DNA from: Branchiostoma floridae
Lineage: Eukaryota; Chordata; Leptocardii; Amphioxiformes; Branchiostomatidae
Direction: 5' to 3'
DNA: 64,000 nucleotides
Assembly (NCBI RefSeq): GCF_000003815.2
Contig: NC_049980.1
Location: forward strand, 10,870,879 to 10,934,878
In this document: piece by piece, positions 10,614-58,461 of the stretch
Layout: each line of letters begins with the position of its first letter
Position numbering within the stretch: position 1 is the first letter of the stretch
Program-made: the position numbers and the translations under genes
Notes under the pieces: model-generated
What the model was told of the DNA's origin: nothing
The model's database searches: none
The model's input: only the letters and a program-made list of their open reading frames with translations

Positions 10614-12010
10614 ATGTCACTCCACCCGGCTCCAGAGTCCAGCCTCTTCTGTAACGCCACCACAGAACAACTCCTTACAAACATCACCATCTTATCATGG
10701 ACGGAAAGCGTCACCGTTACCATAGAGCAACTGCACATCATCATGACAACCGTGCGAGCCATTATGGAGTTTGTCGGCGTGGAAGGTGTGGATTTGGGAG
10801 CCGTCTTTCTCCACTACCTTCCCCGTGTCATAGCCGTGCTCTTCATCGTGCCGTGGTACATCATGGGGTCCCTGTACGTAAATGCCATCATCATCCGCTT
10901 CTACAGTGAGATGTACAACTTGAAGGACCCTTTTGACGGCAACGCTATCTGGCAGAAGGCGCGGTGCGCGGTCTCTGCCTTTTGGGCAGTCCAGGCAAAG
11001 ATTTTGCACGGTGAGTGCGTGGACGATTGATTCAGGTTAATCGCTACAGACAGCTTATATCGTGTTGTTTATTTGAGCGAGGTTAGGGGGAGATAAAAAA
11101 CATTTTTTTTTTCGTAAATTTGTCACGTTGTTTTTCATGTCAATAACGCTAACCTGGCAAAGATGGGAGATGAACAGCTTTTAAAGTCATGAAACGTAAA
11201 ACATTTTCTCATTTTTTATAGGTTGCAAGATTCATGATTTGACTCAACGTTAACATTGGCATCGAGTGTTAAAGTTACTTCAACTTTACAAATTCCAGCA
11301 CAGGGCAGTGTGTGTTAACATTCCTGTTTATTGCCATGATAACATGGTGTTTTCTGAAGGCGATCCATGTAGAGGGGAACAGGGTGTTAGAGGGAGATAA
11401 AATTTCACACGTCTTGATTATCATTTTTCATATCAATAACACTCGCTTGGTGAAGATGGGAAATGAATAGCTCTTAAAGTCATATTAAGTAAAACATTTT
11501 TTTACAGGTTACGAGATTCACGGCTATGAGAAGCTACCAAAGGACGGTCCAGGTCTGATTGTGTACTACCACGGCACCCTGCCTGTGGACTGTTACTACA
11601 TGATGGCGAGGATCAACCTGGACCAGGGCAGACCGCTGTGTGCCATGACCGACCGGTTCATGTTCAGTATTCCAGGTACATGTGTTGTGTCCGCTCTTCA
11701 ATATCTGTTGAAGGGAGTCATACTTTTACTTCATTCAAATAAAGCCGTTATCACACAACAGAAAAATATCTCACGAAACGGGTACATGTACGTGAGCTCT
11801 AATGGACATTTTCGGTTACCGTAGTAATAAGGCCGGTGTCGTCCCGATCACTGCAGGATTTTCAGAGATCGGTCCATGGTCACCGAGACATAGTCTCGAG
11901 AGGGGGAGCTGATTTACCAAACTGCTTTTTCGTTTTGCGATCGGGTTGCGGTAAAATTTCCTTTACTAGCACAGAGAACCTTCGCAGATGTTGAAAATCA
12001 CGAATCAGTG

Positions 12011-12057
<47 letters not shown>

Positions 12058-14462
12058 AAATAAAAATATGTCGCTCCCGAAGTCTGCAAAGGAGGATAAC
12101 CGAGACCCGTGATATGGGACATGGTAGCTTTCAAGGTGATAAATACGCTTGACTTTCTAGTGATTTCAAAATTCCTTGACCTTCTGACGATCAAAAAATT
12201 CGGTCAAATGTCACCGACAGTGTGACGCCGGCTCGACCGAGGTGTCGATAGGAGTTTCTGTTCCGATCATGCTTCTGAAAATGCAGCCATATAGCATTGC
12301 GTGAGCTCTAAATGCCGCTACAGTATATGTTACACAAGAGAATCCCTGTGAGGTAACGGGGGGTCCTTTCCCTTTCATCAGGGTTGAAGTTTATGATGGA
12401 CGCGATGGGAGTGAACCGAGGCGAGCCTAACCACTGCGTGCAGCTGCTGAAGGCCGGGAACCTGCTGGCCCTGGCCCCGGGAGGCGTGAGGGAGGCGCTG
12501 TTCGGAGACAAGCACTACCGCCTCATCTGGAAGCACAGGATGGGCTTCGCAAACGTGGCTAAAAGAGCCGACGTGGTGAGTCATCCGCATACCTTTCCGA
12601 TGACTCTTCCACCCCCTTTCAATCAGTTTGGTTGCGTCCCTCTCCTTGGTGCTGATTAGGCCATCGCACCACAGCTGTCATCGCTGTCCGCGATACTGAT
12701 TGGCCACTGTAGCAGATTGCGTAATTCGTTACTTTTGCGTTGATTGGTCCGTAGTTTAGTGTCTACTAATTCTATCAAATCTCCAGAACTACACATAGAC
12801 GCTTATTCTCCCTTTTCAATAGAGACCGCGAAAGTGCTGAACGAACAAACATTTTACAGATTACTACAGTCGAAGATTTTTACAAATGATTTTTTTACAT
12901 GTCCATGTTGTATTGTCTTTTTTTTTATCTTAACATTTGAATAGTATATACCAAGTATGAAACCAAGTGTCACACAAAAACAATTTTGGTCGCTGAAGGG
13001 TTGCTCAGCGGTGGCTATCTAACGTTAGTGGAATGGGGGCCTTTGTGATAGACGAAGACACCCTATGTAATTCAAAATGGGAAAGAAAAGAACCTGTACC
13101 ATTCCCTTCAAAATGGTAGCATCTTTTTACTTTGTTTTCCTTCTTTCCACGGCAGCCTATCTTCCCAGTGTTCACAGAAAATTTGCGCGAGGTTTTCCGG
13201 ACCCCACGATTCGGGATACGTATGTATCATATCTTTGTGTTTAAACTCTTTTAGTTTTAACATCTCTGAACATTGTGGAGTTTCTTCATTCCACTGTATG
13301 TGACGTGTAATTCGTTATGATATTACTGTGTGTCATAATCTGCAGTTGTTTTTCGTTGATAAAGTCTTCATATCTGCTTGTAAACATGGCTTCCGGCTTT
13401 GTAACATCTACAACTAGCATCATTCTACTTATGTAGTGGAACTGCTTTCCTTCTGAAGATTATAAGTTTAAGATAGTTTATAACCAGTAGATCGAATTCC
13501 ATTTAACCATGTTTCACACCTAGCCTTCCTGGAGTGGGTGTATGAGAAAACCCGGATGCCTGTTGTCCTCATCTATGGTGGATTTCCTGTCAAACTCAGG
13601 TCAGTCAAACATTCTAAAGATTAGTAGATGTTGTACTGTTAGTAGTTTTTGAAATATGAAATTAGTGAGTCTCAAATTTTGGAAATTTACTAGCAGCTAG
13701 TTTAGATTAGACCTTGCATTTGCTAAACAAGTTTTGCAAATTACCTAGCACCTAGTTTAGCTAAGACCTTGCATTTGCAAATATCTTAAAACAGTTCATT
13801 ACCTTACAGGACCTACATAGGAGACCCTATCTATGATCCTAACCTGTCCGCTCAGGAACTTGCTAAGAAGGTGGGTTCTCAATGTTTGAGATTATTTGGT
13901 CAAAGGAATGCCATTTTTATTCAGTTAATGGTAGTTCACCTTTCTTTACATGGTGACTTTTATCCGTTGTTTTTAAAAATGTGGCATTTACATATATCTA
14001 GTAGACAGACGTTGGTTTCAAATTGCACCATTTTCATATTATTCCAGTCTGAAACAGTCGTCTATCGACTTCATATCCCTAAGTACTCTGATTTCATATA
14101 CAATGGATAAAGGTTACCCCACGGATAAAGGTGAACTAGCGGTTATATCAAACAAATCTTCTGGGAACTCCAAAGCTGATGCGAGTTCTGCTGCAGTACC
14201 TTAGAAAGCCAGGGGTCCAGTTAACCTTCAATTTCATGACCCCTTCCCACCTACCAAAAAATTATCAGGATCCAATGAAGGTTGTGAATATATATTGTGA
14301 AATGTAACATGTAATGCTATATTTAACGTTACACCTTACCTATTGTTCCAGACCCATGATGCTATAGAGGAGATGATCGAACGCCACCAGAGGGTCCCAG
14401 GAAGCACTCTCCATGCCCTTCTGGACAGATTTCACGGACCCAGCTCCTGTGGGAAGGTCTGA
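10614..14462 (+). CDS. TMEM68-like triacylglycerol-forming acyltransferase, copy A
   Basis: Seven coding exons: 10614-11010, 11508-11675, 12382-12575, 13156-13219, 13524-13599, 13810-13870, 14352-14462. Every junction is GT-AG and in frame; the product is 356 aa. TMEM68 (also called DIESL) is an ER membrane acyltransferase of the PlsC/DGAT2-like group that makes triacylglycerol. The N-terminus has NxT sequons (residues 14, 23), then a hydrophobic hairpin (~63-97). The catalytic motif is YYHGTLPVD (His154, Asp160), followed by APGGVREALFGD (~220-231), FLEWVYEKTRMP and YGGFPVKLRTYIGDP, all hallmarks of TMEM68. All key residues are present, so the enzyme is probably active. Copies B and C share the exon phases. 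The N-terminal ~37 codons are almost identical to copy B. Human TMEM68 is somewhat shorter (from memory, about 324 aa). Confidence 0.92.
11075..11530 (+). repeat. Tandem duplication across intron 1/exon 2 boundary of copy A, with a relic splice acceptor
   Basis: 11075-11238 and about 11380-11530 are diverged direct repeats offset by about 286 bp. Both contain GGGGAGATAAAA-like, TTTTTCATRTCAATAAC, AAGATGGGARATGAA and TTAAAGTCAT blocks. The first copy ends in TTTTTTATAG|GTTGCAAGATTCATG, a decayed version of the true acceptor and exon start TTTTTTTACAG|GTTACGAGATTCACG. The first copy loses exon homology after ~15 bases, where a dispersed repeat (11239-11365) begins. Confidence 0.7.
12011..12050. 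repeat. (CA)n microsatellite in intron 2 of copy A
   Basis: An almost pure CA run of about 38 bases. The apparent reading frame across it on the minus strand is an artefact. Confidence 0.95.
13934..14136 (-). mobile_element. TA-flanked MITE (about 203 bp), copy 1, in intron 6 of TMEM68-like copy A
   Basis: The ends are GTTCACC (13934) and GGTGAAC (14136), flanked by TA on both sides (13932-13933 and 14137-14138). The terminal inverted repeat of roughly 35 bp includes TTATCCG and GGTTACCCC. The interior, read on the minus strand, matches the elements at 29337-29538 and 37147-37351. The TA target site and lack of coding capacity suggest a non-autonomous Tc1/mariner-type element. Confidence 0.8.
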
Positions 14463-22521: not shown

Positions 22522-22569
22522 TTTGAGTTCGTGCTGACTCGCCGGGAAAACCCGGAAGTAGCTGGTCAT

Positions 22570-24842: not shown

Positions 24843-24848
24843 TTTATT
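24843..24848 (-). terminator. Polyadenylation signal of the DIPK2-like gene
   Basis: AATAAA on the minus strand, about 55 bp beyond the DIPK2-like stop codon. This is the usual hexamer, and its position suggests a very short 3' UTR. Confidence 0.6.
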
Positions 24849-24903: not shown

Positions 24904-26241
24904 TTATGCCATCTTTAAGATTTGCTGCAGAGTGAAGACTGCGTCCAGTCGACCTCCGGGTTGAGTCTCCTGAACACACCGTCCAAGTGCGCCCTCTAGC
25001 GGCCTCTTGATTTTATTCGGAGGGTCGTGTAGAAGTCCTTCAAAGTGCTTATCACTTTCCACGCTACCCGCAACCTCCACTCTTTGCTCCTCACGTTCTT
25101 CACTCGTTTTGCTCCAATTGCGCCGCTCTGGATGTTTTTGCAGATTGGACAAAAGTCGGGCACATATGCTGGCATACATCATTGGAGTGTACTTGAAAAT
25201 GTCCTCACAATGATACTCATCGCTGTACAATGTCTTCTGGAAGTCCATGTAACACTGCTCGTTGCACATCCCCGTCTGTTCTTGATTGACAACCGTTCGC
25301 CTGTCAATCACCATCACATCATCCAAGTCGATCAGTCGAACCCAGCCGCGACTGTCGACTGCGAAGTTTTGGAACGACACATCCAGCAAAAACAGAACCC
25401 AGTCCGGGTCCTTTTCGCGGAGGGTGTCCACCAGTTGTAACAGCTGTAAAGCAATGTCAACCCGAACTTCCCATGAAGAGTCCATGAAAGTGTCTAGCGT
25501 CCTCCCCGCATGTTCCACCACAATCACTCTTCCACAAGCCCCATAAAACTTGGGGAAGGGCCAAGGCGTTTTAGACTTAGTAGTGAAATATCGGAGTAAG
25601 ACCGCCTCCTCGTTTAGGAGAAGTGAGGTGGAGAGAAACGCACGTCCGACTCTATCAACTACCGTATTCTCGCTTTTGACATACAACCTTGTCACTTCTT
25701 GCAGAAACCTGGCAGATAGACAAAGTGACAAGGCTGACTTCTCCTTGTGGGAGATTCTCCACGCTTCCCGCAACCAGTCTGGTTTCAAAGCAACATCGGT
25801 GACCAATATGGTCTCCAGTATAAAAGACGAAGGATTGCACGCATCAGTACGTGGTGTTGTCCCACATATAAAGCTCTCATATCTCTGCCACATATACTCT
25901 TCACTGAGGACTTTAGCAATGGCCGTTTTACCATCTACAGTCCCGATGGAAGCGATACCTTTCTTTAGCGGCTTGCCTTTGTGCACCTTCACGAAGTGAC
26001 CTCGACGTAGAAGTTCACAGGTGTCCCCAAAACACGCCGGACATTTTTCTGGCTCGGCCCACGAAATCAGGATGTCGTCTGTCTCGGCAGATTGTCTGTG
26101 ATGTACCCTTACACTGTGTATGTAGACAAAAATAACGAACAGCAGTACTGCCAAAAGGAGAACCTTCAACCTGGTCGACCTTTGAACCGGCAGAACACGA
26201 TGCAAACGCCTCAATGTTGAGCATAGAGTGGACATTTTCAA
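24904..26241 (-). CDS. Divergent protein kinase domain 2 (DIPK2/DIA1-type), intronless
   Basis: A single uninterrupted frame of 445 codons. Family proteins are secretory-pathway (Golgi/secreted) kinase-fold proteins. Residues ~25-44 (LKVLLLAVLLFVIFVYIHSV) form a signal anchor. CPACFG (67-72) is the DIPK2 hallmark. PFPKFYGACGR (~228-238), LLDVSFQNFAV (285-295, catalytic-loop Asp287 and Asn292), LIDLDDV (303-309, the DFG-equivalent Asp305) and LLHDPPNKI (403-411) follow in the family order. Lys110 in AIAKVL is a candidate ATP-binding lysine. Length is close to human DIPK2A (about 430 aa from memory). Vertebrate DIPK2A has introns, so this may be an ancient retrocopy or a lineage intron loss; the frame is intact and looks functional. 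A second Met at residue 3 could be the true start. DIPK2A versus DIPK2B cannot be decided. Confidence 0.88.
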   Translation of the reverse strand: MKMSTLCSTLRRLHRVLPVQRSTRLKVLLLAVLLFVIFVYIHSVRVHHRQSAETDDILISWAEPEKCPACFGDTCELLRRGHFVKVHKGKPLKKGIASIGTVDGKTAIAKVLSEEYMWQRYESFICGTTPRTDACNPSSFILETILVTDVALKPDWLREAWRISHKEKSALSLCLSARFLQEVTRLYVKSENTVVDRVGRAFLSTSLLLNEEAVLLRYFTTKSKTPWPFPKFYGACGRVIVVEHAGRTLDTFMDSSWEVRVDIALQLLQLVDTLREKDPDWVLFLLDVSFQNFAVDSRGWVRLIDLDDVMVIDRRTVVNQEQTGMCNEQCYMDFQKTLYSDEYHCEDIFKYTPMMYASICARLLSNLQKHPERRNWSKTSEEREEQRVEVAGSVESDKHFEGLLHDPPNKIKRPLEGALGRCVQETQPGGRLDAVFTLQQILKMA

Positions 26242-28424
26242 ACAAAGCTAGCTTAGTAGCTATATATGGTCAGTCCTGGGACTTCCGAAAGAAGAAAACT
26301 TCCCCATTTAGAGTATATGACCAATGCTTTTGTTGGGTGATTCCCCTAGCAAACCCCGAGGAACCGTAAATCAGACTAGGTGCGCATCTGCTTCGCGCAC
26401 CATTAATGATTATCAAGGTCAGGTTAAGGTCGCAGCCCACAGCATTTCTTCTATTACGTAGGGGCAAAAAAGTAGTGCGGCCGAAATCTGGAAGCGCCTG
26501 TAAACACCGTAACGTGAACGACAGTGGGGGATGAGCTTTGCTATATGGTAGTACAAGAAGTCGACTTTCAGGTGGTATGTGTAAGGTTTTGATGTTTGTC
26601 CATTTGGTGTATAAATGCGCGTGACCTTTACAGCTGCCTGCCCTTGTGAGTCGGCTGCAGTTCCGCATGACCCCGCATGACCCCATTTAAAAGAGGTCTT
26701 TACAAAAATTCAAAATAATAATAATAATAATCATCTGGTGTATTTTGCCAGCCAGTAGGTACCCAGTATGAGTAATGAGGCTGTTTAACGTGGTCGAGGC
26801 ACCTCCTCGAGCACGGGACCCCCGTTTTACGTCCCTCCCGGAAGACGATTTCGTGGAAACTTCGTGAGGCTACAGCAATCCGGACGTCCTTGGTTGGTCC
26901 CCCATCCAAGCACTGTCCGGACCGTCGCGTTGCTTAACTTCCGAGATCGAGGGATCGGGTGTACCAACGCGCCACGCGGCCGTAGCAAAAAACGACAACT
27001 TTTTCTGTTTTTCAATTATTTTGGTAGGTTATACCCTCGACTTCAACATATTAGTTTGTCGTACTTGAAAACTGCACCCTGGTATGATTTTATCAGCGTC
27101 GATGTCAGTCACCTTGTGGTCCTTAACTATAGAAATCCCCATAGGCCGAAAACTGTGTGAGTCTGCTACCTTGAACCACAGCGGGGATCGGCCCGGAATT
27201 GCAAGCAAACTTGTATTCGACCAAAATCACATGGCATATTGACTATTGATGTCGGCTCACTTCAAAACGTGCCAGTTTTACAGCGTCAGAACCGCCGTTG
27301 CCATGGCAACGTCACTATGGCCCCGCCCTATGCTTAACTATGGGACTCAGCGTGGAATTGCCGTTGGCCGGAACACCGTTCACCCCCCCCCCCCTTTCTG
27401 TCGCAACGAAGCCGCATGCTAACCCTAAATGATTCAGAAAGTTAGAATATGCACCTTAGAACTTCTTTTAGAACAGAAACCCAACCGGAATTGTACATTT
27501 GTCCGGAAAACGGGACCCCTGACAGCTCCCTCAGATTGGCCTTGTACGGGACCTGCCCTTGTGCTGGGTGCCGAAGTACGAAGTTGGCAATATCTCAGCA
27601 ACCGCTTGTATGTCTGGACTAAAATTTGGCACAGTTCTATATCTTGACTTCTTTTATTCTATAAAGCAAAAGAAATTCAAGTTCAAGTTCGTTTAAATAT
27701 TCAAGGGAGGTTCGACTTTAGAGGCGGGGGGGGGGGGTATTTTCTAAAATGTAGTAAAGGCACGAATCTTTATGAAAACAACATGTTTGACACACTTGGA
27801 TTTTGATGATATAGTAATGTGTTTCCAACTTAACACTTTTCCCCACCTTTTCGTTAGCGTATTGTTTAAGAAAGGTTTATTTGCATTTTGTCGGCTGTTT
27901 TAAATCCATTCCATAGAATGATAGAGGTCGAAAAAATACACTTTCCAAGGAATCTGCAACAATTCTGACACTGACAATTCTTAGGAGATATGTTTTAATG
28001 TGTTGATATTCTTAAAATAATAAATTTGGGGGTATTTTCCATAACGTTACCCCGAATAACGTAAGTACCTGTGGCATGGTATTCATTGGAAATCGTACCG
28101 TACAGACCATAATAAAATCATATCCCTCATTGCGATTGCGTTGAAAGACAGTAAATTCAACAACAAGTTCAACGTTAACGACTTGAGCAGTGACTGGGAA
28201 TTGAAGTTTTTACAAAAGATGTAGATTAAAAGCACTAGTGTAGATCAAAATGATATTTCCCATATTTCGTCTTATTACCAAGTTAAAATCATATCAACTT
28301 TCATTACATGTACACGTATTACCGCAACTCCTGCACGTGTTCAGTTCAATGTGCAAGGAATGTTCTGCGTCCCAACACCAGGACATGATATGTTTTAGAT
28401 ACTCAATCTACACACTAAGAAGTG
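26242..28424. other. Intergenic region between DIPK2-like gene and TMEM68-like copy B
   Basis: Contains the 5S-derived SINE (26708-26983). A run of C at about 27384-27396 and a run of G at about 27726-27737 lie some 340 bp apart and could pair. The rest is unassigned DNA with no recognisable coding exon; the sequence just upstream of the DIPK2-like start should hold its promoter. Confidence 0.5.
26708..26983 (-). mobile_element. 5S rRNA-derived SINE (SINE3-like)
   Basis: Read on the minus strand, the head (26983 to about 26880) matches 5S rRNA internal-promoter landmarks: CCGATC..., GATCTCGGAAGTTAAGCAAC (box A region) and GTGCTTGGATGGGGGACC (box C region). A non-5S body follows and the element ends in a (TTA)n tail at 26713-26731, a typical SINE tail. 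The 5S part departs from a functional 5S gene outside the promoter boxes and is joined to a foreign tail, so it is a retroposon rather than a 5S gene. Target duplications are not clear. Confidence 0.8.
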
Positions 28425-31400
28425 TCAGCCATTCTTTTGGAAACGGAAGACGGGAATTCTTTCCAGAAGGGCGCGAAGAAGATTTCCCGGAATTTTCTGA
28501 TGAGCCTCTATCATGTCCTCCAGGGCACGGTGAGTCTGAAAGGACAAGAGAAGGTTGTAACTCTCTCGAGTTTACGTTCAGAAGTGATTGGTCATCAGTA
28601 TTGATCCTGAAGAAGGCGACAGTGGTCGTTGCTAATTTGATCCGTGTGTGTATTCGTGTTGAACGAAAGATAAGCATTGTAGTAAGAAAATGTTGTGCTT
28701 TGGATACCTGTTTGCTGTCCGTAGGCTGGACATTCAGTATCATGGTCATTTACTTAAAGAACTGCGTGTGTGCAACAGTGGTGTAGTTTTGAGATCTTTA
28801 GAAACGTTGTGTATATTCTTGCCTATGACAATGCAAGACGAGTGTCTATGACTGTGCATTTTGTCCACACAGGATATAAAGGTATAAACAGAAATAGTAT
28901 TAACTAATCTGCCATTAGAATGCTGGCTTACCTTCTTAGCAAGCTCTTCAGCAGAAAGACTTGGGTCGTAGATAGGGTCTCCTATGTAGGTTCTGTGTGG
29001 CCAACATGTCGACATGATCAACAAAACATCTCATTTCAACATGTATAACATGTCTCATATCAAGCTCAAATTCTTTACGGATGCTATCATAGAAAATGGT
29101 GAAAAATGTTCTTGTCCTTTTTTATAGCATGTAACACCTAAACGTTAACATTTAAAATATCACATCATACCGGTCTTGGTCCTGGTTCTCCATTCTCACC
29201 ACACACATACACTAACCTGAGTTTGACAGGGAATCCTCCATAGATACCAACAACAGGCATTCTCGTTTTCTCATATACCCACTCCAGGAACCCTGGGTAC
29301 AAAACAATACAGTCATTACCATACACATTAACGCTAGTTCACCTTTTTCCGCGGGGGTGACCTATATCCGTTATTTTTTTCAAAACAGGGTATTTAGGCA
29401 GATCAAGCCGACGGGTGGTAGTTTTAGACTGCAATATACTGAAAACATTGCAATTTGAAACTTCCGTCGACGTGATAGCCCCAAATGCCTTGTTTTTAAA
29501 TGCAACGGATATAGATTACCCAGCGGATAAAGGTGAACTACGGAAAAATGACTGGAAAGTTATCGTTGATTGAGGTGAACAAAATTCATTTTTATTTGTT
29601 CATGTGTAGACAAAACCTTCAGCCGTACGTGGTACTTACGTTTTCCCATCCGCGGTGTTCTGAACGCTTCCCGGCAATTTTGCGTAAACATGGGAAAGAT
29701 AGGCTTCAGACCAACAAAAACAGCAACAAAAGAGCATAGTCAATATTGGCTCGTAAAGTATTTCAAATCGACTAAACATATATGATCAATCCGATTCATG
29801 AGAAACATGTTTATTCATATTTTCCGCCAATTTCCACCCGTCCATTGCATATCAGTAAGTTGAAAATGAAGCTTTGAATTACTTGTTTTCCGTCGTATAA
29901 TTTGTGTAAATAGAAACTGATGAAGGGCGTAATCACAAAAATCAAACGACGGAAACGACAAAGGTAGTGTAGGAATGTTTAATGTCTATGTATGAAATAT
30001 GACGATCATAATTTGACAGATAACTCCAGAAAGTACAATATATCATTTAACATGATTCAGTGAACCAATCAGAACGTTCACAACAATCACAAGTGTATCA
30101 ACTAGGCGGATAGACCAATCAGCACCAAGGACAGGAATTGTGGTGAAGGGTACGTGTTCATTTTGACGTAACACGTCATTGGTAGGAGGTACATTAATTA
30201 AAAGCACGAACCAATCAGCTTGAGGAGAAGAGAATGATGCCACCAATGACTTACTACACCGGCCTCTTTCGCCACGGCGGCGAATCCCATTCTCCTTTTC
30301 CACATGAGTCTGTAGTTCTCGTCCCCGAAGAGCGCTTCCCTCAATCCGCCAGGCGCCAGGCCCAACAGGTTTCCCTTCTTCAGCACCTGGACACAGTGTT
30401 GGTGTTCTCCTGATGTCACACCCATCGTGTGCAGCATGAATTTCCAGCCTGAAGAGGGGGAGAGCGTAATAATTTGGAGACATAAAGAGTAAAGTTAGTA
30501 GTCTTACAGGAGAAGTGACATGTGGAAAGTGGAACTGTGTATATGGTGATTCAGTGGACATTATCATCACAAATGTGTCTGGTGAAGTTGCATGGGAGTC
30601 AAGTTGGGACTAGGAAAAAATTGTGTTTCCGGCCAGCTGCTGGCGACTGACCCTAGCAAAAATCGACATCAACCGACCTCTAGCCTATTTTTCTTAGGTC
30701 CACCACTGCAAGGGATATAACGTTAAACCTTTCCGTCAGTCATCGGATGAAAAAAAAATTGTAGAATTACTTTTCAACACACAAGTTCTGTAGCGATAGA
30801 AAATGGTGCTTGTACAAAGTATTTCTGTATGTATGATGGATAACGTTAGGTATGATGGCGAAAAATAGCAGCATCTGATCCATTTCTGTACAAAATCTTT
30901 AACAGTCCCTACCTACCGACCTTAATCTTTAAAGCCGTAGTCGGAAACACAATATTGATTACAGAACTATCGAATTACGTCGAAAATTTTTAGGGGTAGT
31001 AGCAGTGTTGGAAGTAAAGCGTTAGCATTTTCTATCATGAGTTGCTGTGTCAAATTAGTGTTTGACAGAAAGCTAAATTACACTGAAAGAAACGATGAGC
31101 TCATACCTGGAATGTTGAACATAAAGCGGTCGGCCACAGCGCACAGAGGTCTGTTCTGTACGAGGTTGACTTTTGCCAGCACGTAGTAGAAGTCTAACGG
31201 CACGGTACCGTGGTAGTACACAAGCAACCCCGGGCCGCGTGTGGGCAGTTTCTCCAGACCATGGATTTCATGAGCTGAGGGTTGAAAGGGGATTTCGCCA
31301 CAAGAAAACGTTTAATCACAAATCCTTTCCACTAATGTTAGACGGCGATCGCTGAGCGACCGTACAGCGACCAAAATTGGATTTGTGTGACCCTAGAATC

Positions 31401-35548: not shown

Positions 35549-38229
35549 TTAGTCCTCTTTCTTAGTGCTAAATGCAGGAATCCTGTCCAGTAGTGCACCA
35601 AACACCGTCCCTGGGATTTTCTGGTAAGTGTCAATCATCTGTTCCAAGGCATTGTGGGTCTGCAGGGGGAAACATGAGAGCTCACAAACATGTTTGATTC
35701 AGGAAATGTTTATGGTTATGATAAGTCATATGGATATAACACTAGACAGTTACTGTGAAATCAAGGAGGTTTCAACCTCCTTGGTGAAAGGCAATAAATA
35801 CAAGGTGAAAACAAATCGTTCTAAACTCATAATAATACAATAGGTCCTATGCCATTTCAAAGTGTAATGCAACACTTGTGGCATGTTAGAATAAAATATT
35901 CAGGATTTTTCTAAAACCTCACCTTAACAGCTAATTCCTGAGCAGAGACATTGGGATCATATGGAATCGGATCCCCAATATATGTCCTGAAGAAAACGTG
36001 TGTATAAAAAAGCTTTCACAAACAATTGAATCATTGAATACGTGTATAGTATATACTACATTAAAGATACATTTATGCAAAGCTATTTCCTTTACATGTT
36101 TCAAACTATTCTAGATGTTTGTACTTTATGTCTTTTCAAGATTGTAGTAAAAACATTTAAATCATCAATGATAATGTGAAAAATTGAAAAGAAAAGAAAG
36201 GGAGAAGAGGGCCGACCTAAATTTCACTGGAAAGCCTCCATAGATTGGCACAATGGGCAACCTGGTTTTCTCATACACCCACTCAAGAAAGTCTGAAACA
36301 TATTCAAGAAAAAAGAACTTCGTTCATGACTTGGCAAAACAATGAAATGGTGATATCCTACAAACTATATGCATACACATGTTTAATAACAGGAAAAACA
36401 ACATTTTATTTTCCAGGCAAACAGATGCATCAAAACATTCACACAACAAGGGCTGCTTGGATACTGTTGTTTGGTTACAACCACAGTCAGTTCTCACATA
36501 AGTCATTTTAGCATAACAAGTTATAACAAAACACTGTCTATAAATAACTAGTAAGTACTTACGCCTTCCCATCCTGATGGACCTGAATCCTTCTCGACAG
36601 TTTTGGGTGAACATGGGATATATGGGCTGCAAAAAAAAAAGTGAGAAAACGTCTTGAAAACTTTAAGCACTGGGAATTAAAACTAGGAAACTACATTTCA
36701 ATCAAAATTGATCTTAAGTATTTGACAACATCTCACCACTTTGGCTTTTTTCGCCACCTTGGCAAAGCCCATTCTGTTTTTCCACACTAGTCTGTAGTAC
36801 TCGTCACCAAAGAGTGCCTCTCGTACCCCACCAGGGGACAGAGACAGCAGGTTCCCCTCCCTCAAGAGCTTGATACAGTCCTCTGGTGCCCCGGGGGTCA
36901 CACACATCACTTTCAGCATCAGGTTCCAGCCTTTGGAAGCAGTAAAATCATTTCTTGTCAACTTTTTTTAAACATTAAAAACAACTATCTTTTTGTTGTT
37001 ATTTTCAAAAGATCTAGAAGAAAGGGAAAAATTGACAATGACATCATTTTTGTTTCCCATATCTGTTTCCAATAAAAGTTCATAAAGTTCATAAAAGTTG
37101 ATGTACCTTTTCTTTACTAATAGAATATACTGATCTGCTAATGTTAGGTCACCTTTATCTGTAGGGTAACCTATATCCAAAGTATTTCAAGATAGGGTAT
37201 TTTGAGATCGTCAAGTTGAAAGACGGTAGTTTCACAATGCAATATTCTGAAAATATTTAAATTTGAAATCCACGGCCTTTAACCAGAAATCCCTAGATAC
37301 AGTTTTTTTTTAATACAACGGATATAGGTTACCCCATGGATAAAGGTGACCTAACGTTATATCGTTAAATCTTCTTTTATGGATAAAGTAAATCAGGCCC
37401 TATGTACATGCAGGAATAGTACAAAGTCAGCAAGGCAAATCTTTTTTTTTTCAAAACTTTTGGCCATATGATAGCTTGATACAAGATGTAGTGTCATCTA
37501 ACAGTACATACCAGGTATCTTGAACAAAAAGCGGTCGGCAACTGCATACAGAAGGCGGTTCTGATGGAGCACAACTTTGGCCATGACGTAGTACAAGTCG
37601 ATGGGGATGGCACCATGGTAGTACACCACCAGAGCAGGGCCAGTGGCAGGCAGCTTCTCTACACCATGGATTTCATATCCTACAGGGGTAAAAAAAGGAT
37701 AATGGTTTGGGCTATTTTAATTCAAAACACTGGAAATGGCACGAGTGGTTTGGCTGTAATTTCCTGATTGAGTATAGAATATAAGTACACATGTAGGTTG
37801 TCAAAGCCCCTGTCACAGATAGCCAACCATGACCCCATGACCCTCTTGCTTACCATGCCAGATTTTCCCCTGTAGTTCCCAGAGTAGCGCGGCAGTTTTT
37901 CGTGCTCCGAGCCAAACGTCTACAGCAAACGCGTCCCTCAGCTTGTGCCGTGCACGGTAGATGTGAATGATCAGCGCGGTCAGGTAGAGGAGAAGGATGA
38001 CGAACACCGGCAGGATGAAGGCCACCATGATGGGGAGGAACATCCACACCAGGAACGAGATCCAGTCGATGTCCAGGCTGTCCACTCCCAGATCCTCCAT
38101 CACGCCATACATGGTCTCCATGGCGACGTTCACCGTCTCCATCCACGACAGAATGGAGGTATTGGTCAGTAGTCTCTCCGTGTCCGCATCGCAGAGAATG
38201 ATGAAATCCATGGCAAGGTTTTCTGACAT
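35549..38229 (-). CDS. TMEM68-like acyltransferase, copy C (most vertebrate-like)
   Basis: Seven coding exons: 37854-38229, 37512-37679, 36737-36930, 36563-36626, 36217-36292, 35923-35986, 35549-35659. All splice in frame and give 350 aa. The donor of exon 5 (AG|GTCGGC) is the weakest. Motifs are YYHGAIPIDLYYVM (His147, Asp153), LSPGGVREALFGDEYY, FLEWVYEKTRLP and YGGFPVKFRTYIGDPIPYDP. The HGAIPID, SPGGVREAL and DPIPYDP forms match my memory of human TMEM68 better than copies A and B do, so this may be the founder gene. The start at 38229 (ACCATG) matches the A/B start context; an ATG two codons earlier (38235) is in frame. A TATTACAG acceptor at about 38270 suggests an upstream leader exon. 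Confidence 0.92.
37147..37351 (+). mobile_element. TA-flanked MITE, copy 3, in intron 2 of TMEM68-like copy C
   Basis: GGTCACCTTTATCTGTAGGG and GGATAAAGGTGACC ends bordered by TA (37145-37146, 37352-37353). The element is 205 bp, and its interior is homologous to the two other copies. Confidence 0.85.
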
Positions 38230-42163: not shown

Positions 42164-42180
42164 GCATCGAGCATTGATTG

Positions 42181-48100: not shown

Positions 48101-51100
48101 GTAGTTACATGTAACTTATGTTTTATCCTATCAAGAAATAAATACGTATGCATGTAGGTGGGGGAAAGTTGTGTTCCAACTGAAAAATTTCAGGTTGCCC
48201 ACTGCGCTACCTGGATTTAAAATTACGACTTACGTTACGTTGCGCCAACCAAAATGCATTTTCAAGTGTGCAAGTGGGTATTTCGAGCACTGTTGCTGCA
48301 GCCTTTGGGTTTATCTCTAAGGAGATGTTCCAACAGACAAGGAAATAAGAAGTCTGTAGTGCCATTGTCCAAGTGGTAACCACAATTACCAATCCGAAGT
48401 GGTACTGAAAAAGAGAAGGGAACCTGGATCGTTTAGACAGTACAGTAGAGAAGGCAGGAAAGGATGCAGGATACCAGAGATTCTGATAGCTTGGAAGAGA
48501 AATGAAGAGGAGCTAAATAAGAAGAAAGGACTCAATGGGAAAGAGATTGCAAACATTGCTGTTGATTGGAAGAGAGACAAATCCTACTACAAACCCTGAA
48601 AACCCAACATCGATCTTTCACATCAACAGCAGAAGTTGATATATTGTAAGTGTAAAGCTGGCCCAACTCAAGAACACAGCTAGCCCTGTCACTACCGATA
48701 ACCACGAAAACTCCATCTGCGGTCAACCTAAAATTGAACAATGTTACACGCCATTGACATTGGTTCTTTTGATTCTGTTGTAAATAGACTCAGTGTACCA
48801 ATGAAACATTGTTGAAATTCAGTATCATAGGCATCTTGCTTACAATGACAGATATCAGGGCTCTAAATACTACCTTCTTATGCAGGGTAGTGCAGGTAAA
48901 ATTGGAGCTGTGCAGGTATTTCTGGTGTCTACCTGCACCTAACCTGCACTGGTCCATGTACTGGGTATATACAGGTTAGTGCAGGTAAAATTGGGGCTGT
49001 GCAGGTATTTCTGGTGTCTACCTGCACCTAACCTGCACTGTACTGGTCCATGTACTGAGTATATACAGGTTAGTGCAGGTAAAATTGGGGCTGTGCAGGT
49101 ATTTCTGGTCTACCTGCACCTAACCTGCACTGGTCCATGTACTGGGTACAGGTTAGTGCAAGTAAAATTGGAGCTGTGCAGGTATTTCTGGTGTCTACCT
49201 GCACCTAACCTGCACTGGTCCATGTACTGGGTATATACAGGATAGTGCAGGTAAAATTGGAGCTGTGAAGGTATTTCTGGTGTCTACCTGCGCCTAACCT
49301 GCACTGGTCCATGTAATGGGTATATACAGGTTAGTGCAGGTAAAATTGGAGCTGTGCAGGTATTTCTGGTGTCTACCTGCACCTAACCTGCACTGGTCTA
49401 TGTCATGAGTATATACAGGTTAGTGCAGGTAAAATTGGAGCTGTGCAGGTATCTTTTATGTCTACCTGCACCTAACATGCAGGTCCCAAATACTAGGTTT
49501 TTATACATAAACGTTATATGATGTAGGTGTACGTGGATTGTTATTAGCTGCATTGAATGTTACCAATATTCTGTAGAAAAGAAAAAATAGCAATGGTTCC
49601 TGAACAACTTTAGTATGAACTATACTTCAAAAATTCAGAGTGGTACAGGTAAAATTTGTCTGGTGCAGGCTATTTTCAATGTTACCTGCAACAGTGCAGG
49701 TATGCAGAAAAAGTATTACGAGCCTTGGATATAGTATGTACATGTACAAGAGAGCTTAGTAGTAGAGAGAACAGTCAACTGTTGCTTTTCTGTCCATACT
49801 TCTCGACACATATACAAAAACACTGGTTTTAAGCTTGGCAAAAAAAACTGTGTTTTTGTAACCTTGAAACAATGTTTCTTTTTGAAGTTGCCCAATTCCT
49901 TGGCATCGAGTTTCTGAAAATTTTACCACTATTCTTGTGAAGCTAAAGATACTCTGTAGTTGATTTGGGTACTCTTTGTTATTCTCAGCACTTGTCGAAT
50001 TACTGCCCTACCGTGATTTCCCTGTTTTTGGCCAAATAATGGAAATTCGCCCCAATACTTGCTGCCTTGTTACCATGACAACCAAGAATATTAAGCCAAA
50101 CCTGATAGGAAGGTATCTTGGAGTGTAATGTATCATTCAATTACACAAAATGTGCAAAAAGAACTGAAGCAATGCAGTCAGTGCTTGCAGACCTTAGCAA
50201 CGTCACACAAGTACATGGCGAGGGGGGTATCCAAACTTCAGGGGGTATGTACAGGGGGGTTAGAGTTTTACAATTGCCTAATTTTTGTGATTTCTGTGTT
50301 TATATAGATCATCTCCATATTTTAGGATGCGTATTTCAAAAAGTTTGTACTAATGTCCCCCCCTACCACAAGGTACAGCATTGAAAGTTTCAGGCAATCT
50401 GCAATAACTGCTAATTTTATTCCCAATCCCTAGCAGTAAGAGGTTAGTTTGCAAGACCTGCCTGGCAAGATGTGAAGTAATGGAATAACTCAGAACATCT
50501 GGACCAAGTGACCTGGATGAACCACACAGAGATCACTACAGAGAGAGCTATGATCATGAAGATTTCCTGTACCACTGTCATGGGCATTTTGAAACACACT
50601 CCAACTTTCCAAAAGTATCACTTCTTCCTGACGTCAAATTCAACAACTCAAAAACTGTCTGCTACCGAAAATCAAATCCATAGCATGTCCAGGACAAAAT
50701 ATAGGAAAACCCAGAAGTTCTGCTGCAGCACCTACAAAAGCCCCTAGGGGGATCGAAATTGACCTTGACCTTTGTTAATCCATCCAGGCTTTCTTAAGTT
50801 ATGCAGACCATAGATATCCAGAAACACACAGTGACACACATACAGATCTACCCCAAACAATATCTCCATTTTTTGTGGAGGTAATAATGATAAAAGAAAT
50901 GCCTTGTATTTCCAAATAGCCCCAAGATATTCCATTTTTCTAATTCCTCCTCTGAGCTGTACCAGAGATATGCATGATTGAGGATGCCAGGATATTGGCT
51001 CTTACAGCAATGGATAAACATGAAGCCTTAAAGTGAAGGTTAATTGGATTATAAGGTTTTCTTTGTCTGGAAGAAGGTGCACTAATTTCACATCTCTGGT

Positions 51101-54100
51101 ATCAAAGGTATGTACAGCATACTAGTATTTCTTTGCATTGACGTTAAAGGTCTATCTTGACTTGTTGGCATGTCACATTGTGGGACAGCAAATTAAAATG
51201 TTCTTGCTGTGCCTCTGAGCAGGATTTGTTTACAGGGAGGGGCTGCTAGCCCTTCAAGTCAACCAATATTCTCGTACATAAATAGTGGTTCACACTTACT
51301 AAGTTAGTCTACTATTTTTATCAACACGTATAGTGGGTAATGAGTAGAGTAGAGTAGAGATCTTCGGTTGTTCGAGGCTCCCCTCAAACGCAGGACCGAT
51401 GTACAAATGGGTGAAAAGTCAGCAGGCACTATGTTTACATGTACTTGTATTGGTAAACAGTGACTGAGAATGATATCATGTTCCTCGTAAGAGGTGTAAA
51501 TATAGGAATGAGGTTTTCATGGACCACCCAAAAGACAACACTGGTACCATTGACATCTGTTCTACAAAAACTGAAAACATGATGCCAGGATTCATAATAA
51601 AGGACCCACAGAACACATGTAAGACTTTGGACTTGGCCTGGGTCCCAACATATGCTGGTTAGGTTTATATGCTTAAGTAACTATTGGAGTTGACATGACC
51701 TCTGCTGCCTTAAGCAATGTTGGCATACAGACTTACTTTGGACTAAAACCTGCTGTTTCTTCCATCACACATTTATTAGAGCAGTATAGGTGCCCAACCT
51801 TTAGGTCTGTTGGTATGTGTGTATATAGAACTTAGAAGCCTCGTGCAATTGGATGCTTCGTGTATATGTAAACATTCTTATTTACATACAATTACAACAT
51901 GATGATGACAACATTCTCTAGATCTGCATCATTAAAACAATGCTAATAGTATTATTATGCTATGCATTTTGCTTGGAATTGTGTCATACTCAAATTGTTC
52001 TTCATAGGCATTGTACTTCCTCTTTGGGCCGTCAAACTCTCAAGAAAAAGTTAGGTACACTATATTCTGTAACTTTGGGACTGTACTGAGTCTTAGATTA
52101 CTTAAAAAAAATTATGTAAACAGACCCACTTAGTAGTGTCTATTTGCAAAGTACACCTCAGCTAATTGATGGGCGATTAAGTTTGAAATAGATATCAAAT
52201 CTATAAACAACAGAGGGTAAAGTAAAACTTAAAGTGTTATGCTCATCTGGGCAGGTTTAAAAAAAAAAGAAGATAATTATGTGGCTACTTGTTTGACTTC
52301 TCATTCTTTCTAATCTTTGTGTAGCAATAAGCTATATTTATATCGATGCAATATTTTCTTCCATATGTGCTGGGCATAATTGTCTCTGTTCAATGCAGCT
52401 TTTTCATAACAACAGCATTATCAATGTTACCCTGACCTTCATGGTAGAAATGTGCTAACAATAGACTATGACATTTGTGCTCGCTTGCAACTTAATATTC
52501 AGAACAAGGGCATAGGAAAGTGACTGAAAACCAGGACATACCACTACTGTTCGTGGGTAAACATGCTGGTCATTGCACAAGACAGTCACATGCCACAATT
52601 GTGTCATTGTCAGATGAGAAAATTATATTTGTTATGGTTGCACTGCCATTTGGAAAATACATTTTAATGTAAAAATGTATGGAGGAAAATCTGGATATCG
52701 ATCTGGTAAAAAAAAAGATCAGGAAAAATATAACAGAAAGTGCTGCCGTGCCTGCTCAGTGAATGTACTGTATCTTTTGCCATCTCCCCTATAACATGAA
52801 TGGTTCACCCCAGAGCTCCTCTATTGTCCTTTCAATATAAATGATCACACCAACTTCAGAGTGATAGGTATAACCTTATCAACGTCTACAAATTTGTCTT
52901 ACGGGAATTACTGTTCTCGTTTGCAGAGTTCTGGCTTTGTGTCGCCAATCAGGAAGATGTTCTCCAAGAGCGAGCGCGGCAGCGATAAGAAACCGTCCAT
53001 CGTGAGACACCGGCGTCCTCTTCACGCGGTTGCCCTTGAGCCTCCTGAATACCTCATCGACCCAGAACTACTCATAGAGGACTATATTGAAAAAGAAGTC
53101 AAGGTATGGTGCAATCTACAATGTTTATTATTATGTTGTTACATTTGGGGATGTTTGGTTTGGCAGTTAAAAAGGTATTTAGCAAGTTCTTTATACTCTT
53201 ATAATACAATGTAGTTGTAACTGAATGCCATCTGTCTAATGTTAAGGGCAATCACATGCACTGTTTTATGGTTTCAGACAGGAGACAGGCAAATTTTCTG
53301 GTATCGTAGAAACTTATCAAATGGCATCATAATTTTGTCCAAAAATGATTACACCTACAGTGTATTTATTTTGCAGAAGAAGCAGTCAAAATTTAAACAT
53401 TGAACATTGGTTTTGATATTGAGTTTGACCTAACCGCAGTGCTCCAAACAATTTATGCTCATGTTTGCACAGAGCTTGATATGAAACCCTAAGACTAATA
53501 TTATGTCTGTACATTATATGATGGAAAAAGGAAATACAAAGATTGTGTGGTTTGTACAAAAGCAATGTCAGAAGATTTATAACTGTAACATGTACCATGT
53601 TGTGCCTTTGTGCTGGGTGTCCTCGGGTCAAAGAGAGAACAATTTATTGATCCCCGTGCCCACATCTGTCAGACTAATTCCCCTCTGTTGCGTGCACACA
53701 ATATTTTTTTCAACACTAGAAACAGCCAGGCAGCCTTTGTGAGGCACTTTTCTCTACATTATTCATGTCATTTTTGTTGAATATCATGGTAAAAGTAATT
53801 GTTCTCAATTGTTAAAGAGAACAAGATACATGTGATTTGTGTGCCTTACCAAAATTTGTGCAATGGTCGTTAGGGAATTGTTGCAGAAAATGATAGATTG
53901 GTGTAACTTTTGTAACAATACCACAAACATGTACTAACAATTTCATTTTATGGTGGTGTCCTCATGATGCTTGGAAAACCTGGATACAAAATTCACTATT
54001 AACTTTTCTTAGGCTCACATAAATTGATTATACTTAATTTTTGTTCAAGATTTTTGACCAAACCAAATATAGATTTCACTAGTAGTAGTTATTTTGATTC

Positions 54101-57100
54101 CATTCAAAAACATTTAATCCCTAAAACTGGATAAAAAGGGAGTTTACTTCCAGACATTTTGAGTGTTATCTGTCACTCCTCTAGTTATCTTCAGCGTCAC
54201 TAGAATATACATTTTTCTTTGAAGATTTTCAACCAAACCAAACACAACTTTCATCATCTTTAATAATTAATTACTTTGATTGCTGTTGTTTCCACAGTAC
54301 TTAGGAGCAATACCCAACGTACCTCAGGGTCTGGATCTGACCAATAGGACAGAAGTCTTGAGAATAGTGGATGATGGGAAGGTGAGGATCTTAGCATTTG
54401 GGGATATTTTTTGTTAATGATTGGATAACATTTTTCTGTGTTCTGTGTTTGGTTAAAAGTTTAATAAAATATGCAATCTTAGAAGTTGAAGTGAGAAATC
54501 TTTAAGTTAGGAAAAGTTAGACTTAGACAGATAACAGAAAATGTGTCGATAGCACCATAGTGCATTACATGATTATGTATCTTGTACTTGCATGTACATG
54601 TATGCAGGCTTGCCAATGAAAAGGACAGCTTTGAAATCTTTGTCAGTCTGTATTACCTTGTGGTTTGTCACTCTTCTTTATAAGAAGACCAGATTCTCTA
54701 GGTCCCCTGGGTGGTCAAGTTTGACTGTATATCTATCCATAGATTCAGTTGATAATTTTTATCTGACTACAGCATGTACATGATTGTATAATAATACTTC
54801 TGTTCTCCAATTTTGCAGAGAAGGGGTTTGTTACCCTGGACATTACATCTAGAACACGATGCCATCATGAGTCTGTCTGCCAACCATGTAAAGCTGCTGC
54901 GTAGAGACGGGGAGGACTTGTTACACCGAGTCCCGGTACACGACATCGCGGCAGTCTGCTACGTACGCGATGACGGGCTCAATCTACTGGCCCTGAAAAT
55001 AGGTCAGTGTTCCTAGCCTTTTCTATTCTTCAATAACACAGTCGGGCCACGTTTATTTGATTATATGTATGACATCCTCTAGGAACCCCAAAACTAATGT
55101 GTGCAAATAAAAAAACAAAAAATAGTTGCCTTCCGTGTAAGTACATTTGTAGTTAGAAATGTTTTTGGAAATTGCCGGATGTCATCAATATAGTCAAATG
55201 AACATGGCCTATACTGACAAGAAAACTAAAACAGTAAAAATGAACTTAGTCAAATGACAATGTCATGGCCATTTGGGGCATCGTAATTTTTTTCTTTTTT
55301 CCTAGCTTTAGTATTGCTAGCCTTGTATCTCAAATCTTTGTTTTGTAAGTGTTTGTATATATGATGCTGCATTTAGTTTGCATTTGGCCAGAATGCCCTA
55401 CACAATGTTAGAGACTGCAGTACCACATACAAATACCAGGTGGCATGCACAGTGAAGTACTACGTAGTAACATGTTTATCATCATGCATGATTGTGTTAG
55501 ACAGGCTAACAATTGATGGTTTAAATGATTATTAGTCTAAGATTAATTTCTTAAAACCAATAAAATGTGGCTCTTTCCTCTCTACAGGTTCTGAAGGTGC
55601 TGATAGTGAAGTCTGTAACATAGTTGTTTTACATGCTGAAAGTAGGGTAAGTACAACTTTTGGAGTGTTTTTCAAGGTCAAACTTGCTATGTTTCTGACT
55701 TGTTTCTTCGCTTCCCATTTGCCTCATGTAGTGTTACACAATGTTATACACAACTTGTTAAAAAATAGCTGTCAAGTTGTTTAGAAAGGTTGCTTTACAG
55801 CAATGGTATTGTTTTCTGTGTGTTATTTTGGTACAAATGAATGTGTAATACTGTGTTGTCTATTGCACCTGTCCTGTAGGCAGCATCTGAGGAGCTCTGC
55901 TCTCTGATTGGTCAGACTTTCCAGCTGGTCTACACAGAGTCCACCATGGCATTTCTGGACCGGTCCATTTTACAGGGGGCGTCCACCCCCAGATATGGCA
56001 TGTCCCTCAGAAGTAGTAAGTCCCAATATTTAAATACCATCAACAATATACCAGGTAAAAAGGTGCATGATTTATTGGTAGACAATTGGAACTACATCTC
56101 AAATAGTAAACACACCACTCTATATGCTTTCATGTATATATACACGTGTAGTTACATTGATCAAGGCATTAGAACAGAATGTCTTAAAATACCGGTATGA
56201 TATTATAAGAGAATGTCAGCATTTCAAAGATTGAAACTGGTCTGCTTTCCTTCCCAGCCACTTCCAGTCCTGCCAGACCCAGTGTAGCAGAGGTTTTCGC
56301 ATCCACGTAAGTTGCACAAAGTTTTTGAAAGTGCCTGGTAGAGCTAAGTATGCTTATACACAAGTTAGTGTCCTTTATTGTACCATAGTGCCCTTTACCG
56401 TACTATATTCCAGATTAATGAAATCAGCTAGCATTGGTACAGCCAGCATCGCACTGTCAAAAGCTCAAGTCCAAATTTGTTAATCACCAGGTAGCCGCAA
56501 ATTGAGTGCATTTTTTTGCCTGAAAATCTAGCCTATGGCAGTGCTATCGCTCTGTGACCTACAAGCACTGGCTGATCCCTAAAAGCACAGTGACAGAGAA
56601 GACACAGGCTGATAATATCCTTTTGAACTGCTGTGTGAAGCTGACTCACCTGTTATTTCTCCCTAACATGATATAATTATACTGTTTGCTGTACTGTTGC
56701 AGGCCACCAAGACCGTCCAATAATAATCACTCTCCGACGAGGGAAGCCCGGTCAACACCCCAGCACACACGGAAGGAAAGTGTGGCAAAAAGTGAGAGTG
56801 ACATCAGTATCACCCCGTCTGCTCAGGAGCTCCTACAAGACTACATGTCTCTTGTATGTGGACACTTCTGTTGAGTTATTGTGGTATCTCACTGCACTTG
56901 GGGCACCAGCCCTGTGGGGTTTGTTTACTGCAGTTTTGCTATTTTCGCCGATTTTTTATCATTTAGATACTGCATAATATGTAAAAGTATGACTAATAAG
57001 ACAACAAAATACATGTACACAAAATGTAAGAAAATTTGTTCTTTATCTCTGAAATTCATCGAGTCATCTACTAAAACCCCGCAGTGCCGCACCAGTGCCC

Positions 57101-58461
57101 CAAGTGCAGTTACATACCACCTTTACCTTTTATTTGACTATATAATAATAATATAAACAGTACAGTCATATTCTATGTCATAAAGTTTATGTTTTACTAA
57201 CTGCTAAAGAATGTTTCGAAAGATAGTTTTGACATACGTTCCAAACAATAAAAAAATAAAAATTTATATTTACGGTATACTTTTGTTGCAACTGGAATAT
57301 CAAGGAAGCAAAATTAAATGTCTTACGCAAACATTTTAAAGTGTAGAATATTCTAGACTTTGTTAAAGGATAATATTTTTTTTCTTTTTCTCAGTTGAAG
57401 ACAAGGTTGAAAACAGAAGAGTTGAAGCAGTTTGCGCTCCTGTTGAGACAGTACCGCACCAGTATTAGTGTTCGGGAGTTCTGTATCCGCCTGAAGGACT
57501 TGTACAGGGAGGAGAGGAAGTTCCTGATGGCAGGTCAGACATCAAGCCTTGTCAAGTTGATTTATGCATTTTCCATCTATTAATGTTTCTCTCTTTCTGG
57601 AAATTCATATGTCAAATGGTCCCATCATGGAAGGACCCAGTTTATAAGATTTCCTCATAAATTATGCAAATTATATTCTGATTTGCATGATAACCATCTA
57701 ATTATATCCAACATCACTTAAGCTATCTACATACCAAAAATCATGGTGATCCATCAACCCCTTCTTGAGTTATTCTCTTTCAAAGTCTGGAACTTTTCCA
57801 AAAAAAAAGCCACTAAGGCGCCCAAAACCACACCATTTGCTCTTTGCTCCAAGAGCTGGTGTATGTACTACTGAAAATTCATGACCACAGCATGTCCAGA
57901 ATGTGAGATATCAAAACCGTAAGTTCTGCTGCAGTACCGTTATTTTAGTGGAAGAAATTGGTGGTCTGCCACTCCACTAGCAGAAAAGCAGGAACCTTCA
58001 GTCTTTTAAGGTAGCTATTTGGCACTTAATTTGTGTTAGTTATGGGGTTGGGCAGCAGGGATAGGGTGAAGCAGTTGTGACAGATGTTGGAATAAATATT
58101 TCCTTGTCCTTGGTTTTGTTTTTCAGGTATGAGGCCATTTATTCCAGAAAAAGATAGTCAGTACTTTGAGAGTTTCCTGGAATCTATAGGAGTCGATGGC
58201 AATGGAATTCTCACAGACAGTTATCGCCGCTACAGGCGGACTATAAGCGATGCCTCGGCATCAACTTTTAGTGCCAACGGTGCCAATGGCAATGGCAACG
58301 GGAATGGGAACGGTAGAGACTCGGTGTCAATTCCATCCTCGGGGGGCGACGCCACGCCGGTTCCGCAGGAGACGGAGGAACTGGACAGAATGTTGTCGGA
58401 CATCCATAATGACATTGAGGCCTTGGCAACAAGTGTGGAAAACATCAACATGCAGTTTTAG
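42181..58461 (+). CDS. CCM2: CCM2 (malcavernin) scaffold protein
   Basis: Ten coding exons: 42181-42234, 52927-53103, 54298-54381, 54819-55002, 55588-55646, 55880-56015, 56258-56306, 56703-56853, 57395-57533, 58127-58461. All have GT-AG ends in frame; the product is 455 aa (human CCM2 about 444). CCM2 links KRIT1 and MEKK3 in the cerebral cavernous malformation complex. The N-terminus ends MEDDGRKKK, followed by [11 protein letters not shown]. The PTB domain (~70-230) contains [30 protein letters not shown] and [20 protein letters not shown]. The harmonin-homology domain (~290-380) contains [30 protein letters not shown] and [23 protein letters not shown] linker holds an Asn-Gly repeat, and the acidic tail [15 protein letters not shown] is conserved. 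CCM2L is the alternative vertebrate homologue, but similarity to CCM2 across the full length, including its tail, is stronger. Intron 1 is 10.7 kb. Confidence 0.96.
45853..46097. repeat. Tandem pair of about 168-bp units
   Basis: GGGCATAGGTTCCCCGGCTG...CCTAACCGGG...GGTGCCTCAAGTTCAACAA is present at 45861 and again at 46029. The CCCCGG/CCGGGG arms can form a hairpin in each copy. The spacer between them is also recognisably duplicated, so this is a two-copy tandem repeat rather than two separate insertions. Confidence 0.75.
46380..46880. other. CpG-rich segment in CCM2 intron 1
   Basis: Two dense CpG patches (about 46400-46500, with GCGCGGCCCCGCCGGCCGG, and about 46740-46870) stand out from the AT-rich intron. 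This could be an internal promoter/enhancer or a GC-rich repeat; no convincing exon is seen. Confidence 0.35.
47471..47612 (+). repeat. Dispersed repeat, plus-strand copy (inverted partner at 50236-50365)
   Basis: Begins TAGGGGGGGACA and ends CCCCCCTGTACATACCCCCT. The middle contains AATACGC...AATATGGAGA. The same order occurs on the minus strand at 50236-50365. Confidence 0.7.
48881..49490. repeat. Minisatellite, seven units of about 89 bp
   Basis: Units start (TGCAGGTAAAATTGG or TGCAAGTAAAATTGG) at 48891, 48980, 49074, 49157, 49246, 49335 and 49424; spacings are 89, 94, 83, 89, 89 and 89. Each unit contains TACCTGCACCTAACCTGCAC and the near-complement CAGGTTAGTGCAGGTA, so units can form hairpins with their neighbours. 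A degenerate partial unit persists at about 49640-49700. The 88-codon frame inside the array is not a gene. Confidence 0.92.
50236..50365 (-). repeat. Dispersed repeat, minus-strand copy
   Basis: Reverse complement of the 47471-47612 family. Both end in ACCCCCCTGTACATACCCCC, and both start in TAGGGGGGGACA. Confidence 0.7.
50681..50735 (+). repeat. Dispersed repeat carrying CTGCTGCAG, copy
   Basis: Shares AGCATGTCCAGGACAAAATA and AGAAGTTCTGCTGCAG with 23551-23610 and 57871-57938. Confidence 0.55.
54718..54729 (-). mobile_element. Pogo/Tigger-like terminal repeat end in CCM2 intron 3
   Basis: On the minus strand, TA is followed by CAGTCAAACTTGACCACCC, similar to the CAGTCAAACCTGG end at 39107. 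It is an isolated end without an obvious partner. Confidence 0.35.
57871..57938 (+). repeat. Dispersed repeat carrying CTGCTGCAG, copy in CCM2 intron 9
   Basis: AGCATGTCCAGAATGTGAGA followed by AAGTTCTGCTGCAGTACCG, matching the copies at 23551-23610 and 50681-50735. Confidence 0.55.

Follow-up and report, generated by a model that had tools for sequence, protein, structure and literature searches.

In the amphioxus Branchiostoma floridae, the window (the whole stretch of DNA analysed, 64,000 nt, C2:10870879-10934878, where C2 is the contig that holds it) and about 70 kb beyond it very probably represent an unduplicated chordate block, the source of the neighbourhoods of vertebrate XKR4 (8q12), XKR7 (20q11) and XKR6 (8p23). 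The window contains a single gene each for XKR and CCM2 besides three TMEM68-like genes, and the right flank adds, 37-53 kb past the window, TDH (a threonine dehydrogenase gene) and two further XKR genes; TMEM68, CCM2 and TDH all lie within about 110 kb around XKR. For each of the three XKR copies, a different one of the surviving neighbours is found in this one block. From this arrangement we infer that the vertebrate neighbourhoods descended by whole-genome duplication with reciprocal loss.

An earlier note on this DNA had linked one XKR gene, three TMEM68 genes and CCM2 over positions 10614..58461. The span fits the gene positions found, and the gene content of the window was confirmed, but the locus as a whole holds three XKR genes and not one. 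The note had also proposed a single ancestral locus for the XKR4, XKR7 and XKR6 neighbourhoods; one unduplicated locus is indeed supported, with TDH as an extra marker, but amphioxus is a cousin of the vertebrates and not their ancestor.

The mammalian neighbourhoods were taken from gene lists in association and copy-number papers. In cattle, XKR4 is listed with TMEM68, TGS1, LYN and a tRNA gene after XKR4 (PMC9498432), and a second list groups XKR4, TMEM68, TGS1, LYN, RPS20, MOS and PLAG1 (PMC7057717). In human 20q11.2, XKR7, CCM2L, HCK, TM9SF4 and PLAGL2 are given within 300 kb (PMC9292497), and a pig list agrees with the XKR7-CCM2L-HCK grouping (PMC10734178); the available text of a review on 20q11.21 gain mentions HCK and PLAGL2 without XKR7 or CCM2L (PMC10828824). 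The third neighbourhood comes from a cattle list, where MTMR9 stands with FDFT1, NEIL2, GATA4, BLK, FAM167A, TDH, XKR6 and PINX1 (PMC8908906). The human positions are reported as 8q12.1 for XKR4, 20q11.21 for XKR7 and 8p23.1 for XKR6 (PMC6585022). XKR stands next to TMEM68 both in the mammalian XKR4 block and in amphioxus, where TMEM68 is present in three copies. Likewise, XKR is near a CCM2-type gene both at 20q11 and in amphioxus, although in amphioxus XKR and CCM2 are separated by 30 kb, an interval that contains two TMEM68 genes and a FAM69-like frame. Finally, XKR is near TDH in both the XKR6-TDH-BLK block and the amphioxus locus.

The identity of the genes was established with searches of the window and of the genome (513.43 Mb in 431 contigs, C2 making up 6.8% of it), together with a flank survey covering the window and 100 kb on each side (264 kb, 13 kb of these being N). 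The queries for human TMEM68 and CCM2, as well as for LYN, PLAG1, SOX17 and GATA4, were provisional reference sequences. The TMEM68-like genes were delimited as stop-free splice models of seven exons for gene A (10614-14462, plus strand; positions are those of the window unless a contig is named) and gene B (28425-32390, minus strand), and of six exons for gene C (35549-38229, minus strand), for which a seventh stretch was located at 35917-35997. Their proteins, that of gene C having been completed by hand for the comparison, are 55-66% identical in pairs and 43-51% identical to the provisional human TMEM68, gene C being the closest (51%) and gene A showing 43% over 327 aligned positions; the best stretch reaches 63% over 57 residues (E 5.5e-22). 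Of two exons of gene A submitted to Pfam, one was without match and the other gave a sub-threshold Acyltransferase match (E 0.065); as Pfam gave no name, the name TMEM68 rests on the provisional human sequence. A genome search with gene C, its missing exon supplied from gene B, reported 17 matches, all of them inside genes A, B and C. The first-exon stretches of A and B (10608-10745 and 32259-32396) are 91% alike, in inverted orientation, and the two proteins show 66% identity overall, a pattern that suggests gene conversion.

The CCM2 (malcavernin) gene lies on the plus strand, where seven colinear stretches match the provisional human CCM2 at 52933-58440, an extent read from the matches. Five of them have E values below 1e-10 (52933-53103, 54816-55007, 55883-56023, 57395-57535 and 58114-58440) and two are weak (54295-54381 and 56785-56847; E 0.010 and 0.25). 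Malcavernin was the PDB match for both the PTB part and the harmonin-homology part. Moreover, the Pfam family CCM2_C was recognised in two exons, and the genome search with this family gave two matches, both of them these same exons.

TDH was located at C2:10973628-10975687 by query, with an earlier exon at 10971677 recognised by eye, and scores 200 bits against a solved L-threonine 3-dehydrogenase (4yr9). It is 2.6 kb from XKR2, and the genome has one other TDH locus. Since it was found in the flank after the earlier note had named TMEM68 and CCM2 only, it comes close to an independent test. The two additional XKR genes, XKR2 (C2:10978298-10980719, minus strand) and XKR3 (C2:10983820-10987233, plus strand), are followed by OSTM1 and EFR3 (C2:10989190-11005597). 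Human EFR3A lies on 8q24 and EFR3B on 2p23, positions that would be consistent with the paralogon of the locus. No second such block was reported in the genome, the TMEM68 and CCM2_C matches being confined to the window, the second TDH locus being on C7 and a fourth XKR4-like gene being at C2:1.76 Mb.

The XKR gene of the window has three coding exons on the minus strand (22521-22028, 18579-18395 and 17904-16883), encodes a product of 566 aa and matches the Pfam XK-related family in its last exon (1.7e-62). Against four PDB sequences, the product scored 264 bits with XKR4, 141 with XKR8, 115 with the 7p14 chain (which we take to be XKR9) and 51.5 with XK; a second scoring gave 270, 128, 122 and 79 bits for XKR4, XKR8, XKR9 and XK, respectively. 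Phylogenetic trees were built with XKR4, XKR8/9 and XK as references. The amphioxus rows were a selection of the XKR genes, comprising five intronless ones, a gene from C7, another from C2:34.5 Mb and the four XKR4-like genes of C2; two intronless rows present in the first tree were dropped from the second. The window gene, XKR2 and XKR3 form a clade in both trees (91/94 in the first, 98/98 in the second), and both inner intron positions are common to these three genes and the gene at C2:1.76 Mb, as read by eye from the junctions. In the second tree, the trio is placed with XKR4, XKR8/9 and the 1.76-Mb gene, apart from XK, at 86/93, and a fork at 93/93 in the first tree joins the window XKR to XKR4/8/9; the support for this grouping apart from XK, which is a long branch, is moderate. 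In the second tree, XKR4, XKR8/9, the trio and the 1.76-Mb gene leave one fork whose branching order is unsplit. None of the arrangements compared by the AU test was rejected (p of 0.348 for the trio with XKR4, 0.304 for the trio with XKR8/9 and 0.324 for XKR4 with the 1.76-Mb gene). The assignment to the XKR4/6/7 type, as first proposed, is therefore favoured by the scores, but the tree does not separate the gene from XKR8/9.

This unsplit fork bears on a wider reading, according to which all of XKR4-9 would derive from this block in its unduplicated state, with XKR8 and XKR9 as fast-evolving copies of the same locus. Moreover, XKR4, 5, 6, 7, 8 and 9 are all placed on human 1, 8 or 20 (PMC6585022). 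The scores point the other way, being more than twice as high with XKR4 as with XKR8 or XKR9, although slow evolution of XKR4 alone could explain that difference, and we hold the wider source to be possible but somewhat doubtful.

The family extends well beyond the locus, with 44 matches to the XKR profile in the genome. On C11, eight of the nine matches extend over almost the full family profile within a single frame, which in one case contains a stop, and further single-frame genes with nearly the full profile are found on C3, C1 and C18 and at C2:34.48 Mb; this single-frame set has the appearance of an expanded group of intron-poor genes. The fourth XKR4-like gene (C2:1757973-1766038) has one intron more and is followed by a long open frame; it is possibly XKR5-like.

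The genes might have been assembled by chance or secondarily in the amphioxus lineage, so that the match to the mammalian neighbours would be a coincidence. Tight linkage is not the default, since chordate linkage units keep their chromosome-scale linkage in amphioxus, and gene order within them is largely scrambled (Simakov et al. 2020, PMC7269912). Under a rough model, however, it is very unlikely that some 110 kb would hold three different neighbours of mammalian XKR genes at random: for three or more of 16 such neighbours to fall within 120-250 kb by random placement, P is 7e-9 to 1.7e-6, a value to be taken only as a guide, the list of 16 having been made by ourselves and partly after seeing the data. 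Such an assembly is considered highly improbable.

A different question is how the vertebrate copies were made. They could come from separate segmental duplications instead of whole-genome duplication, in which case the amphioxus block would still be the source arrangement. Segmental duplication has been argued for human 1/2/8/20, with the XKR and HCK families, each showing at least threefold representation on these chromosomes, placed in different co-duplicated groups (Pervaiz et al. 2019, PMC6585022). On the other hand, papers on the CRH genes describe a tetraparalogon derived from two genome doublings (PMC9353778, PMC7406891), and the amphioxus chromosome-scale study favours genome duplication (PMC7269912); separate segmental events are accordingly judged unlikely. 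In reedfish, the CRH genes are flanked by XKR genes on tetraparalogous regions (PMC9353778), and in gar an XKR triplet is described in the paralogon that also holds SRC-B (PMC7406891). XKR is common to this opioid/CRH paralogon (human 1/2/8/20) and the window, and the SRC-like genes on C2 fit its SRC-B/HCK; amphioxus differs in having the block in one copy, with TMEM68, CCM2 and TDH.

The preferred reading, genome duplication with reciprocal loss, would involve the following steps. Before duplication, XKR, TMEM68, CCM2 and TDH would have been close together; afterwards, every copy would have retained XKR and shed different neighbours, leaving TMEM68 by XKR4, the CCM2 copy CCM2L by XKR7 and TDH by XKR6. 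The same chromosome would have carried SRC-family kinases and TGS1, either adjacent to XKR before duplication or brought nearer only later. In the amphioxus lineage, TMEM68 and XKR would each have undergone local duplication, resulting in three genes of each kind. Furthermore, common long-range regulatory DNA might have kept XKR, TMEM68, CCM2 and TDH tight since before the split between amphioxus and vertebrates, despite the scrambling around them. We regard this idea as rather unlikely; if it were true, the block would represent a regulatory unit inherited from the ancestor and could serve directly as an outgroup when establishing which copy lost what.

We think of the locus as a good new example within an already known paralogon, and not as a new kind of thing. 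As a tight block in a genome of scrambled gene order, it offers a clean outgroup for rooting the paralogon and lets one ask which vertebrate copy lost TMEM68, CCM2 and TDH. It also provides an anchor for part of the paralogon, for which the 2020 study of CRH neighbours, in the portion available, described no conserved region in the cephalochordate genome (PMC7406891). TMEM68 and CCM2 are absent from the accessible text of PMC6585022, as are TMEM68 and TDH from that of PMC9353778, and the main text of the hagfish genome paper does not include XKR, HCK or TMEM68 (PMC10972751). In the open-access literature, nothing was found joining TMEM68 with Branchiostoma, and none combining CCM2L or CCM2 with whole genome duplication and amphioxus; TMEM68 and CCM2L appeared together only in an association study, and among the matches listed for XKR4/TMEM68/LYN/PLAG1 there was no mention of amphioxus. 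The block may still be described elsewhere.

The linkage of the remaining mammalian neighbours is looser. The earlier note had suggested looking for a SRC-family kinase just outside the window, and none was found there: across the 264 kb surveyed (13 kb N), queries for the LYN kinase domain, the PLAG1 fingers, SOX17 and GATA4 produced no match that reached E 0.01. In contrast with the 20q11 block, no SRC-like gene was found adjacent to the locus in amphioxus, and, unlike in the XKR6-TDH-BLK block, no GATA match was found near it. A LYN SH3-SH2 query gave 25 matches in the genome, 10 of them on C2. Nine of these ten fall into three SH3/SH2 clusters, located at 13.21, 23.36 and 25.96 Mb, and the four highest-scoring matches of the search are among them. 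These three best SRC-like clusters are 2.3-15 Mb from the window. With the whole LYN query, 84 of 553 candidates were scored, the top ones being in single uninterrupted frames, and none of the 84 was on C2; the SH3-SH2 query was the more informative of the two. The SRC catalytic-loop motif, searched as a degenerate DNA pattern, gave no matches, an uninformative result because the motif would be missed if it were split by an intron or altered at one residue. Genome-wide, many tyrosine kinase domains lie in long frames without interruption, and C12, C1 and C7 carry clusters of them.

The sole match to the TGS1-type methyltransferase family, a family that we take to be linked to TGS1, is at C2 23.80 Mb, 12.9 Mb from the window and 0.44 Mb from the SRC-like cluster at 23.36 Mb. 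By analogy, this proximity may echo the mammalian TGS1-LYN pair; compared with human 8q12, however, both this match and the SRC-like cluster closest to the window (2.3 Mb) are far from the amphioxus XKR and TMEM68 genes.

Unlike in the opioid/CRH paralogon, NKAIN and most GATA matches are on contigs other than C2. All three NKAIN matches are on C17 (C17:15823477-15829060); of eight GATA matches, seven are off C2, five above 50 bits being on C5, C17 and C15, and the one on C2 (30 bits) is at 23.47 Mb. C17 holds, together with NKAIN, one GATA finger pair (C17:19080989-19082054), and the two may belong to the remaining portion of the same ancestral linkage group. According to the chromosome-scale study, two ancestral groups, CLGJ and CLGC, alternate along BFL2, which has CLGJ in common with BFL17 (PMC7269912); a spread over C2 and C17 would thus be expected if C2 is BFL2 and C17 is BFL17.

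Some other features were observed in the region. A FAM69-type kinase-domain gene, a single open frame on the minus strand (24907-26247; Pfam PIP49_C 2e-26, PDB search without match), is a passenger of the block, and a carboxylesterase exon was recognised by Pfam at the left edge of the window. Ten further frames of the window, plus 59577-60236 and 63398-63838, were without Pfam match, and three window proteins were without NCBIfam match. A Homer-like coiled coil at C2:10956685, spotted by eye, gave weak Pfam coiled-coil matches and none in PDB, and was dropped as evidence. Between the FAM69-like frame and TMEM68 gene B lies a 5S rRNA-like match (26867-26987, minus strand; 51.3 bits, the gathering score being 38), possibly a lone or degenerate copy. 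Finally, a tandem array with a period of about 89 bases and seven copies in one family occupies 48848-49484, between TMEM68 gene C and CCM2.
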